NCBI GenBank assembly: GCA_030529455.1
Contig: JAUMWV010000013.1
Location: 1 to 41,346 of the forward strand
From: Propionibacteriaceae bacterium
Lineage (GTDB): Bacteria > Actinomycetota > Actinomycetes > Propionibacteriales > Propionibacteriaceae
Direction: 5' to 3'
Length of the DNA: 41,346 nt
The notes below the pieces were generated by a model. The model had not been told where the DNA came from. It saw only the letters and a program-made list of their open reading frames with translations, and made no database searches. Positions 33,903 through 38,872 of this stretch are shown here, piece by piece. The first letter of the stretch is position 1, and every line of letters starts with the position of its first letter. The translations under genes were made by a program, and so were the position numbers.

Positions 33903-33923
33903 CCTATTTATCGACAAATAGCT
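33903..33923. repeat. AT-rich dyad, copy 1, just downstream of parB
   Basis: A 21-base element: arms CTATTT and AAATAG around the six-base centre ATCGAC, flanked by CC and GCT-type ends. It is 11 bases past the parB stop on the parB strand. The arms match copy 2 at 38797-38817 except for two base-pair swaps that keep the pairing. It could act as a terminator hairpin, a protein site or a recombination site. Confidence 0.7.
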
Positions 33924-33934
33924 ATAACTATCTA

Positions 33935-34819
33935 TCAGCTAATCGTCTCGTGGTTGACGATGGCGAGAATCCGCTCGAGGTCGTCCTCTCCCGCGAACTC
34001 GATCACGATGCGCCCGCGATTCTTGCCCAGGGCTACCTTGACCCGGGTGTCGAAGTGGTCGGAGAGGGATTCCGACAGCGCGAGGGCCCGCTCCGACGGT
34101 ACCCGTGGGCGGCTCGCCCGGCGGGGTCGCCGCACCTGACCCATCATGACGAGCTCTTCGGTCGTGCGCACCGACAGGCCCTCGGCGATGATCCGGGCCG
34201 CGAGGGCCTCCTGGGCATCGGGGTCGTCCAGGCCGAGGAGGGCCCGGGCGTGTCCGGCAGAGAGCACCCCGGCCGCGACCTTGATCTGCACGCTGCCCGG
34301 CAGCCGAAGCAGCCTCAAGGTGTTGGAGATCTGCGGGCGGGAACGTTTGATGCGCTTCGACAGCTCGTCCTGGGTGCACCCGAAGTCGTCCAGGAGCTGC
34401 TGGTAGGCGGCGGCCTCCTCCAGCGGGTTCAGGTCGGCGCGGTGCAGGTTCTCCAGCAGCGCGTCGCGGAGCAGGTCCGCGTCCTCGGTGCCCCGGACGA
34501 TGGCCGGGATCGTGGGCTCACCGGCGAGTTTGCTGGCCCGCCAGCGCCGCTCGCCCATGACGAGCTCGTACCCGTCCTGGCCGACCTCCCGGACCACGAT
34601 CGGCTGCAGGACACCGACCTCCTTGATCGATGCGACGAGCTCGGCGAGGGCGTCCTCGTCGAAGACCTGCCGCGGCTGACGCGGGTTGGGACGCACCCGG
34701 TCGATGTCCACCTCGGTGTAGTACGACCCGTCCGGCAGGGCCTCGGATGCGCCGCTGGCCTCGGTCCGCTGAAAGAGTTCGCCGAGGCCCCGGCCCAGCC
34801 CCGTTGGTTTCGCAGCCAT
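33935..34819 (-). CDS. parB: Chromosome-partitioning protein ParB
   Basis: A 294-residue CTP-dependent clamp that loads at parS sites and recruits SMC and ParA. The N-terminal CTP-binding domain has the box [13 protein letters not shown] (residues about 88-100), and the linker [23 protein letters not shown] leads to the helix-turn-helix [23 protein letters not shown] (about 145-170). A C-terminal dimer domain closes the protein. The ATG shares its A with the parA stop (TAATG), so translation is coupled. Three parS sites lie within 3 kb. Confidence 0.96.
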
Positions 34820-35832
34820 TACCTCTCCATTCTCTCGGCGCGCAGCGCGATCTCTTCTGCCGCGCGCAGGTATGCGATGGCACCGGACGACGTCGGGTGG
34901 TAGTCGATCACGGTCTGTGCGTAGCTGGGCGCCTCGGCGATGCGCACCGAGCGCGGAATCGTCGTCTCCAGCGTGACCGCCGGGAAGTGCTTGCGCACCT
35001 CCGCGGCCACCTGCTGGGACAGGTTCGTCCGGGCGTCGTACATCGTGAGGAGCACGGTCGACAGGGATAGCCGGGCATTCAGCTGACTACGGACGATGTC
35101 GATGGTCCGCATCAGCTGGGTGACGCCCTCCAGCGCGTAGTACTCGCACTGGATCGGGACCAGGATCTCTCTCGCCGCGACCAGCGCGTTGATGGTGAGG
35201 AGCCCCAGTGACGGTGGGCAGTCGAAGATCACGTAGTCGAACTCGAGGTCCCGGACCGCCGTCCGGAGGGCGCGCTTCATGACCGTCTCGCGCCCCGGCA
35301 CCTGGACCAGCTGCAGCTCGGCACCGGCCAGGTCGATCGTGGCGGGCAGAACCCAGAGCCCGGGCTGGTTGGGGGACGCGACCACGTGATCGGCGATGGC
35401 CGCGCCTCCGGTCAGCACCTCGTAGGTGCCCGGCACGCCCTCGGCGTGTTCCACGCCGAGCGCGGTGGAGGCATTGCCCTGGGGATCGATGTCGATGAGC
35501 AGAACCTTCAGGCCACCCTGGGCCAAGGCCGCAGCGACATTCACGGCCGTGGTGGTCTTACCGACCCCGCCCTTCTGGTTCGCCACGACCATAATCCGGG
35601 TGTCTTTGGGACGAGGCAGGACCAGCTCGACCGCCTCCAGTTCCTCGTCCGGGGCGATGGCCTCCGGCCCGCCGTCCTCCGGGATTTCGAAGGACGCACG
35701 CCTAGGACCGCGCGAAGACACCGGAATAACCCCTTGGGGGCTCGTTTCACGTGAAACATCGTCGCCACCCCGGACAGGGGTTTCACGTGAAACATCGGCT
35801 CGTTTCTTGCGCCGCCACGGCAACACAGCCAT
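34819..35832 (-). CDS. parA: Chromosome-partitioning ATPase ParA (Soj) with a long N-terminal extension
   Basis: A 337-residue deviant-Walker ATPase that moves ParB-parS complexes. The Walker A loop KGGVGKT is at residues 87-93, with [10 protein letters not shown] and the [14 protein letters not shown]alker B region following. Before it is an extension of about 75 residues that carries the pentapeptide VSRET twice (14-18 and 26-30); these are the translations of two parS sites. GAAGGAGAA precedes the ATG and a TACAGT -10 lies at 35864-35859. The gene is followed directly by parB. The gap upstream toward rsmG is about 2.4 kb, where most relatives have almost none. Confidence 0.96.
35743..35758. 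other. parS: parS site 1, inside parA
   Basis: CGTTTCACGTGAAACA matches the ParB-binding consensus TGTTTCACGTGAAACA at 15 of 16 positions. It lies in the coding sequence for the ParA N-terminal extension. Confidence 0.93.
35779..35794. other. parS: parS site 2, inside parA
   Basis: GGTTTCACGTGAAACA matches the consensus at 14 of 16 positions with an intact TTTCACGTGAAA core. It is 36 bases, exactly 12 codons, from site 1, in the same reading frame. Confidence 0.92.
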
Positions 35833-35858
35833 TCGTTCTCCTTCGGGTTCGCTGCTCC

Positions 35859-35864
35859 ACTGTA
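35859..35864 (-). promoter_or_regulatory. -10 box (TACAGT) of the parAB operon
   Basis: TACAGT on the minus strand lies 26 bases before the parA ATG, which has its own ribosome binding site. The eleven bases TACAGTGGAGC also occur at the rsmG promoter, suggesting a shared origin or shared sigma factor. Confidence 0.5.
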
Positions 35865-37796: not shown

Positions 37797-37812
37797 GGTT
37801 TCACGTGAAACA
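37797..37812. other. parS: parS site 3, in the gap upstream of parA
   Basis: GGTTTCACGTGAAACA, identical to site 2, lies 2 kb from parA in non-coding sequence. Confidence 0.92.
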
Positions 37813-38021
37813 ACGCCGCCACGAGCCACGGGTTCCCAGAGCCGACGATCCCAGCCGACCACCGTCCCGCCCGGAGCGAGCCGGGAACACCGGATGCCCG
37901 GGCCGCGGCGCCAGAGGAGCGGAACCAGGAACCGGCGGGCCGAGGGCCCCGCGAACGACACATGCCTCCCGCCTGCCGAGGCCCCGCCCATCCGGCCGAG
38001 GTCGCCTCGACTCTCCTCGCC

Positions 38022-38117
38022 ATCGATCCGACCTCACCTGAGTGGCGTGCCTCCCAGCGGTGCGTAAGGCCGAGGGTCTGGCTGGTGTGGTCCGGATCGA
38101 TCCGACCTCACCCGAGT
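38022..38117. repeat. 22-base direct repeat, two copies 74 bases apart
   Basis: ATCGATCCGACCTCAC plus a short tail occurs at 38022-38043 and 38096-38117 with a single mismatch (CCTGAGT against CCCGAGT). The copies lie downstream of rsmG in the gene-poor region. Function is unknown. Confidence 0.7.
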
Positions 38118-38257
38118 AGTGAGTGCGTCTCCCGGGCCGCCGCCGCCCCGCCGCAGGGACACCATGTCCTGCACCGGCGCCCTTGTGCTGCCCGACGCAC
38201 CGATGGCCTCGCGCCACAGCCAACCGATGACGCCGCGGCGCTCGGTTCAACAAACCC

Positions 38258-38872
38258 TCAGGCGGCCCGCCGGACGAGGATCACGTTCGTGGCCTCCGCC
38301 TTGGCGTGGGCGCGGGCCGAGCGGACCTCGGCCCGTAACCGCGCCTTGGTCAGCAGCTTGCCCGCCGCGGCGACCTCGTCGGTGGCGCTGCTGCCCTTGA
38401 GCGCGTATAGCGCCCCGCCCGGCGCGATCAGGGGAGTGCACCACCGCAGCAGCTTGTCGAGGGGAGCGACCGCGCGGCAGGCCACCGCGTCGAAGGTCTC
38501 CTTGCTGTCCTCGGCGCGGATGCGCACCACCCTCACCCGGTCCTGGAGACCCAGTTCTTCGACCGCCCGGGTGAGGAAGTCGGAGCGCCTCAGCAGCGGC
38601 TCCATCAGCGTGACCTCCAGATCCGGCCGCGCGATCGCCACCGGCAAGCCCGGAAGGCCAGCGCCGCTGCCGACGTCGACGAGGTTCAGCCCCTCCGGAA
38701 TGAGTTCGACCAGGGCGAGGGAGTTCAGGATGTGGCGCTCCCACAGCCGCTCGGCCTCGCGGGGCCCGAGCAGACCCCACTCAATTCCTCGACTTGCCAA
38801 TATATCGACATATTGCTTTAGCCGTTTATAGCCGTCTGGGAACGCTTGCTGAGCCAACTCTTCGCCGATCAC
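38258..38872 (-). CDS. rsmG: 16S rRNA (guanine-N7) methyltransferase RsmG
   Basis: A 204-residue SAM-dependent enzyme that methylates G527 of 16S rRNA; loss gives low-level streptomycin resistance. The family start GxxERLWERHILNSL and the SAM-binding loop LVDVGSGAGLPGLPVAI (about residues 64-80) are clear, followed by RKRDFL-like RRSDFLTRAVEELGL and a C-terminal ASAREL-like segment. The GTG at 38872 is six bases after a TACAGT box, with GGAG also close before it. Residues about 14-30 use codons rare here (ATA, CTA, TTG, AGT, CGA, TAT, CAA), where an AT-rich dyad overlaps the gene. Confidence 0.94.
   Translation of the reverse strand: MIGEELAQQAFPDGYKRLKQYVDILASRGIEWGLLGPREAERLWERHILNSLALVELIPEGLNLVDVGSGAGLPGLPVAIARPDLEVTLMEPLLRRSDFLTRAVEELGLQDRVRVVRIRAEDSKETFDAVACRAVAPLDKLLRWCTPLIAPGGALYALKGSSATDEVAAAGKLLTKARLRAEVRSARAHAKAEATNVILVRRAA
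38797..38817. repeat. AT-rich dyad, copy 2, inside the 5' coding part of rsmG
   Basis: Arms CAATAT and ATATTG around the same centre ATCGAC as copy 1 (33903-33923). Seventeen of 21 bases match copy 1. The four differences fall at two paired positions (T/A becomes A/T in both), so the dyad is preserved. It forces AT-rich codons for about residues 19-26 of RsmG. Confidence 0.7.

Follow-up and report, generated by a model that had tools for sequence, protein, structure and literature searches.

What is a matching pair of AT-rich dyads doing on either side of the parAB genes and parS sites of a bacterial chromosome, where origin-proximal cis elements besides parS and DnaA boxes are, to our knowledge, few? 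The pair lies on contig JAUMWV010000013.1 of a Propionibacteriaceae bacterium (assembly GCA_030529455.1), in a stretch of 41,346 nt referred to here as the window, and the claims made for it in a preliminary description were tested on the window and on the draft genome to which it belongs (1.95 Mb, 91 contigs, 85% complete). The two dyads belong to a larger element, an array with an 8-bp period that is restricted to a clade, and further copies lie in the DnaA linker, near dnaB and before a ParA-like/scpA operon. Judged from sequence, the favoured explanation, with a probability of about 0.55, is that the element is a cis array acting at the DNA level, to which a dimeric protein would bind cooperatively and which may organise the origin domain for ParABS. 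The core dyads and the arrays around them are located as follows.

33904..33921, minus strand: core dyad 1, read as CTATTTGTCGATAAATAG on the sense strand of parB; it scores 33.2 bits when the window sites are kept out of the matrix and 36.6 bits with the first matrix
38798..38815, minus strand: core dyad 2, CAATATGTCGATATATTG, which encodes QYVDIL within rsmG; 25.4 bits with the matrix without window sites, 27.9 bits with the first matrix
33898..33937, minus strand: array 1, probable extent, in 8-bp units TGATAGAT AGTTATAG CTATTTGT CGATAAAT AGGTTTGA; overlaps the parB stop codon
38776..38823, minus strand: array 2, probable extent, GGCTAAAG CAATATGT CGATATAT TGGCAAGT CGAGGAAT TGAGTGGG; the in-register units are seen directly

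Both 21-base elements are present as reported, and their four differences are two complementary swaps. The placement just after parB and inside rsmG has likewise been confirmed: dyad 1 lies 13 bases beyond the parB stop codon, which ends at 33935, and dyad 2 lies near codon 20 of rsmG. The centre of the dyad is also near-symmetric, TCGA being flanked by R/Y. When the degenerate 18-mer CWATWTGTCGATAWATWG was searched with up to three mismatches, only two places were found in the window (four rows, counting both strands) and none in 100 shuffles. Across the draft genome the same pattern finds the two dyads at 0 mismatches and one further place at 2 mismatches, and the reversed-pattern control gave no match there; genome-wide scatter was thus absent, these two being the only exact copies. 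The window is 70% GC, and its most AT-rich 30-mer is located at copy 1 (23/30 A/T), while copy 2 ties with one other place for the second most AT-rich (21/30).

Conservation at both places was found in relatives. Of 38 genomes searched with up to two mismatches, 21 contain matches, and those of family f1 lie recurrently inside rsmG or just past parB (from the named loci, f1 is taken as Propionibacteriaceae, f2 as Kribbella and f3 as Nocardioidaceae). In aligned relatives the rsmG site occupies one fixed place, at about codon 20, and the distance past the parB stop codon, measured for 23 post-parB sites, is 1–53 bp in 17 and 143–179 bp in five, the remaining site overlapping the end of the gene. 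The left copy is found elsewhere in other families, between rpmH and dnaA in Kribbella-like genomes (three f2 loci checked: L080, L083, L093) and in the variable linker of DnaA in Nocardioides and Aeromicrobium. Ten DnaA genes have a match of at least 16 bits; seven of them read the same core in frame 0 and three in frame 1, one of the three (L140) being weak at 16.1 bits; this frame test is independent of codon choice.

Codon use in rsmG points in the same direction. Most copies of the rsmG site read TAT GTC GAY ATA TTG, with the fixed residues Y-V-D, and the f1 rsmG genes that encode Y-V-D at the site, the window included, use TAT in 11 of 11 cases. In 16 relatives from f2–f4, Y-V-D is found in none and Y-A-E in eight, and the first codon is TAC in 11, TAT in three and TTC in two; in a wider set of 113 rsmG genes (nine not parsed) YAE is the commonest triplet, present in 31 of the 81 genes without YVD or YVE. 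Among 20 site-carrying rsmG genes TAT is used in 20/20 cases versus 61/233 elsewhere in rsmG, parA and parB (Fisher p 2e-11), and ATA encodes 15/17 of the isoleucines versus 37/662 elsewhere (Fisher p 3e-16), a test that is partly circular because the site itself defines the gene selection. On this sequence evidence the element is real, conserved at fixed places and under selection at the DNA level, and the earlier suggestion that the dyad is selected as DNA and is accompanied by rare rsmG codons is supported by the conserved sites and codon use of the relatives.

The dyad forms the core of an array that extends beyond it, with TCG/CGA boxes at 8-bp intervals and AT-rich spacers between them. 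In array 1 this period is weak in the single copy of the window and clear among relatives. When 35 distinct sites are aligned on the core, CGA is found at −32, −24, −16, −8, +8 and +16 in 20–29% of sites, versus 0–9% at out-of-register offsets. The 136 TCG/CGA dinucleotides outside the core are distributed over phases 0–7 as 74, 2, 3, 15, 17, 12, 5 and 8; with kinship among the genomes ignored, 74/136 in register modulo 8 gives a binomial p of 1.5e-31, and none of 2000 random-phase trials was as high. Without L107, which has no parB match, the count is 73/133 (p 1.8e-31), the 15 named sites alone give 26/54 (p 1.7e-10), and in the coding flanks of 18 rsmG sites 36/81 are in phase. The array also appears outside the training places, in dnaA of L078 (CGACGAAT CGACCTGT CGACTTGT CGACAAAT CGACCTTC) and near dnaB in L215 (CGACAAGT CGACGAAT CGCTTTGT CGACATTT). 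Tetramer boxes at a regular short step, here 8 bp, are the mark of a ribbon-helix-helix (RHH) centromere, and ParG, MetJ and TrpR bind with an 8-bp step as dimers side by side. The 8-bp step together with the palindromic tetramers suggests that dimers would be bound side by side here as well.

Two loci deserve separate mention. In L107 (genome G081) a perfect TTTGTCGACAAA is located at 1501–1512 in an array-like context, and the surrounding 3 kb contain no parB, rsmG or dnaA match at E<=1e-5. L224 (G108) has five separate array positions of at least 16 bits around rsmG-parAB, at 3613, 3947, 7481, 10047 and 10891, which suggests an expansion of array copy number.

These properties bear on two of the roles that had been listed for the dyads. 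An RNA hairpin or transcription terminator ending the par operon is improbable. The bare 21-mers of the window do form more stable folds than most of their shuffles (z −2.5 each), and some relatives have long inverted repeats on or overlapping the post-parB core (e.g., L081, L084, L114 and L166), but the window 21-mers reach only −3.2 and −3.4 kcal/mol, their 51–53-nt contexts give z −1.0 and −1.95, and no Rfam match was found at E<=0.1 in 32900–39500. Copies at rsmG codon 20 or inside dnaA are ill-suited to a terminator, and the boxes continue every 8 bp beyond the hairpin. Moreover, the centres of 35 post-parB sites read GTCGAT in five, ATCGAC in seven and GTCGAC in 23, so that the sense-strand form ATCGAC, whose last pair cannot close, is as frequent as GTCGAT; such a lack of orientation bias is as expected of a DNA site. 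In L166 the stretch 7050–7115 after parB holds a perfect inverted repeat, 21 bp or longer with four bases in the loop, which overlaps the array and is possibly a terminator superimposed on it. A recombinase or attachment site pair, for which the two arms with a 6-base spacer, the direct orientation and the presence of two copies would speak, is extremely unlikely when judged from its context: the DNA between the copies is the ordinary housekeeping region rsmG-parA-parB, the left partner shifts between genes across families, and extra in-register boxes run past the dyad. Of the roles first listed, it is the dimeric-protein site bracketing the parS cluster that suits the data, while the recombinase and hairpin readings are left unsupported.

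The distribution of the element was assessed with a symmetric 26-bp matrix built from 35 sites and run on 118 loci (37 relatives, 80 named loci and the window; the relative locus L073 and the named locus L138 are from the same genome). The maximum in 30 simulated windows was 11.1 bits, against 36.6 and 27.9 for the dyads of the window, and 28 of the 80 named loci reach at least 16 bits versus none of the 52 others (882 kb, best 13.9). Sixteen named loci match in rsmG or dnaA, places that were never used in training, and when all matches of at least 16 bits are counted, overlapping neighbours included, 77 of 105 lie in labelled places. Because named sites and the window had helped to train this matrix, the scan was repeated with 19 sites only, all of them from unnamed relatives. 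With this 19-site matrix 27 of the 80 named loci reach 16 bits, namely 25 of the 26 labelled as Propionibacteriales (Propionibacteriaceae, Arachnia, Micropruina, Propionicimonas, Nocardioides/Nocardioidaceae/Marmoricola, Aeromicrobium or Kribbella) and two metagenome-assembled genomes (MAGs) with broad labels (L155 and L166). The single labelled Propionibacteriales locus below threshold is L179 (12.4 bits), and none of the 52 remaining named loci, from Micromonospora, Cellulomonas, Demequina, Jiangella, others and four MAGs with broad labels, reaches 16 bits (best 11.1). The five relatives of f4 have no array.

Within f1, arrays are found in 0/3 loci with broken rsmG-parAB synteny versus 12/16 collinear loci (p 0.036), a comparison from which two more f1 loci, whose stretches lack parAB, were omitted and which is only suggestive of array loss where the synteny is broken. 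Of the four collinear loci that have no array, two are poor cases: L063 has 15.2 bits after parB, and the contig of L059 ends inside parB. In the f1 relatives L066, L067 and L071, parA and/or parB are inverted with respect to rsmG, and no 16-bit array is present at rsmG or after parB.

On a wider scale the pattern TWTGTCGACAWA occurs in 73 of 147 genomes of the order, with one to six copies in every f2 genome, some of them coding coincidences, and in 35 of 196 genomes of the class. An f2 site about 50–60 kb from the par locus looks like such a coincidence (GPYVDKS in a secreted glycosidase-like gene), as do single copies in jag-, tsaD- and diaminohexanoate-dehydrogenase-like genes. Outside the order one genus, g63, is distinct in that four genomes have copies near dnaB, the gene being assigned by a Pfam match in L215 and by sequence likeness for the other copies; two further copies are located elsewhere (G238, G321), and a fifth genome, G217, lacks the pattern. 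Beside the dnaB-proximal arrays of g63 there is a conserved basic protein of 76–87 amino acids (L215 4192–4422, L217 4714–4944, L218 4486–4749), two copies of which were tested against Pfam and gave no match.

The main rival explanation is that the element is the operator of a transcription factor with a small replication and segregation regulon (dnaA, dnaB, rsmG-parAB and a ParA-like/scpA operon), its paired sites looping. Three f2 genomes (L102–L104) have a dyad about 100 bp before a ParA-family gene that is followed by scpA, four f3 genomes (L111, L112, L116, L117) have one beside the 5′ region of dnaB with a MATE-type gene opposite, the dnaB-side dyad of several f3 genomes being 30–40 kb from the other copy, and the three f2 loci checked have a dyad between rpmH and dnaA. 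The array near dnaB in g63 and the dyad before scpA in f2 keep a regulatory role in consideration. The most constant site is, however, the one after parB, the rsmG and DnaA copies lie inside coding sequence, and the scpA and dnaB copies of f2 and f3 are lone dyads without a surrounding array. An operator is regarded as possible, and tentatively so.

The favoured explanation, a cis array organising the origin domain, draws on the position of the arrays relative to parS. The genes and parS sites of the par locus are as follows.

33935..34819, minus strand: parB, with TIGR00180 and HTH_ParB matches
34819..35832, minus strand: parA, whose 5′ end contains two parS sites
38258..38869, minus strand: rsmG (gidB), coding part used as query, with a provisional start codon
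35744..35757, no strand assigned: parS 1, GTTTCACGTGAAAC
35780..35793, no strand assigned: parS 2, an exact parS
37798..37811, no strand assigned: parS 3, an exact parS

The gap between parA and rsmG (35833–38257, about 2.4 kb) is GC-rich, contains one parS and, by eye, no convincing gene, and its length differs among relatives. Farther away, at 28870–29073 and 29070–29429, a gene pair lies between trxB-like and trxA-like genes; since neither Pfam nor NCBIfam gives a match at E<=0.01, the names antitoxin (RHH-like) and Doc-like toxin are assigned to it by eye only.

The statement that the pair encloses all parS sites holds, as the three exact parS of the genome all lie between the dyads. In 19 of 21 genomes all 52 exact parS are found at the rsmG-parAB locus, and where two labelled arrays are separated by more than 1 kb (26 loci, a selection that omits f2), 42 of 43 exact parS lie between the arrays. 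In some f2 genomes the right site is located near the outermost parS. The interval between the 5′ end of rsmG and the 3′ end of parB holds 88/100 parS in 50 array loci versus 126/217 in 60 array-less loci (8 of the 118 loci were unusable), a difference confounded by phylogeny because array-less f4 keeps 20/21 parS inside.

In the proposed mechanism a dimeric protein would nucleate at the near-perfect dyad WTWTGTCGAYAWAW, the high-affinity centre of the array, and would then bind cooperatively outward and side by side, with one dimer per 8 bp, to produce a stable nucleoprotein patch of roughly 40–60 bp. In Propionibacteriales a left patch (in rsmG, the rpmH-dnaA gap or the DnaA linker) and a right patch (after parB or near the last parS) would thus enclose the parS cluster. 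The patches would most likely organise the origin domain for ParABS, for example by tying both ends of the segment to each other or by restricting the sliding of ParB clamps; that they bound or organise the parS domain is a plausible proposal. A stronger version, in which the paired arrays are centromere boundary elements whose bound patches stop or anchor sliding ParB clamps and so create a closed, insulator-like domain, is considered doubtful. In PMC10387095, proteins bound to DNA with high affinity are reported to block the sliding of ParB in vitro, so that a boundary role is reasonable on physical grounds. In simulations from that paper short-lived roadblocks have only a mild effect. Neither a description of this element nor an insulator-like boundary for chromosomal ParABS was found in the titles, abstracts and passages of the open-licence papers searched.

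Several observations weigh against the array as an organiser of the parS domain. Part of the bracketing is to be expected in any case, given that parS sites cluster near rsmG-parAB, and array-less loci also hold parS inside (the 126/217 given above, with 20/21 in five f4 loci). In the f2 genomes G025, G037 and G053 the outermost parS begins beyond the right site, at a distance of 33–40 bp, and some other f2 loci have a longer distance between the two. The arrays of g63 lie near dnaB, 28–37 kb from parB, and 3.8-kb stretches around parB from five g63 genomes contain no array within 1.5 kb of parB. Several f1 genomes have no array, hence the element is not essential to ParABS. In the first scan 28 of 105 matches of at least 16 bits lie outside the labelled places, elsewhere in the fetched stretches. 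As to the period, it is weak beyond the core in the window itself, phases 3–5 also contain 44/136 dinucleotides, phase 7 holds 21/81 in rsmG, and the sites of related genomes are not independent. A work cited in PMC10387095 indicates, by its title, that ParB can bypass roadblocks by dimer-dimer recruitment. Finally, binder candidates were sought among Noc/ParB paralogues, PF01402 RHH proteins, TrpR and local genes, and none was supported.

PF01402 has no match in the own genome (85% complete) or in the site-bearing f3 genomes G029 and G035, other RHH families lying outside this search. TrpR gave no match in the own genome or in any of 22 f1 genomes; across the 38 genomes, 12 have weak matches, one of them above the cut-off. 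Gene clustering over the 118 loci yielded four families that are much commoner beside arrays (21 v 2, 19 v 2, 9 v 0 and 9 v 0, of 54 array and 64 array-less loci). Judged by eye, two are membrane proteins (SURF1-like and DUF3817-like), one is an acyltransferase and one is an open reading frame that is probably spurious; none of them is obviously DNA-binding. A site for a Noc-like ParB-family paralogue is very improbable: TATTTGTCGACAAATA resembles the Noc site TATTTCCCGGGAAATA in shape and arms, but HTH_ParB occurs in 37 of 38 genomes with one match only in 34, the second matches (G008, G025, G032) being weaker, and the own genome, 85% complete, has one HTH_ParB match, the window ParB scoring 218 versus a TIGR04285 cut-off of 315. 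An 8-bp array is not known as a feature of parS or of the Noc site.

Most of the Propionibacteriales, as sampled, keep this origin-proximal cis element at fixed places; in rsmG it is accompanied by codons, and even amino acids, that are unusual, and in dnaA it is written in more than one reading frame. Natural patches beside parS would allow the bounding of a centromere domain to be tested directly, and their binder, once found, would be a new chromosome-organisation factor.

A comparison with known systems places the element close to several of them. It is not a DnaA box cluster, as its core has G where the TTRTNCACA box has the first C of CACA; regular DnaA boxes are found on the dnaA-dnaN side in four of eight loci examined. 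Like chromosomal parS, the dyad is a palindrome of similar length with few copies in the origin region and is tolerated in coding sequence, whereas its sequence differs and its flanks are periodic; with a GTCGAY core against the GTTTCACGTGAAAC consensus, and with three exact parS coexisting elsewhere in the locus, the dyad was rejected as a parS. The Noc site (NBS) likewise has AT arms around a 6-bp palindromic, GC-containing centre, in contrast to which there are two copies here rather than many around the chromosome, as for Noc, and nearly all searched genomes lack a Noc-like paralogue. The tandem operators of MetJ and TrpR share boxes every 8 bp and cooperative dimers, whereas the present array is located at replication and segregation loci, and the search for TrpR was negative in the own genome and the 22 f1 genomes. 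The plasmid centromere parH, the site of ParG, consists of degenerate tetramer boxes with AT-rich spacers according to passages of PMC7308502, and it resembles the array in these features and in the ParA-family system adjoining it. Unlike parH, the array is chromosomal, is additional to ParB/parS, has palindromic TCGA boxes and occurs in several dispersed copies, some of them inside coding genes.

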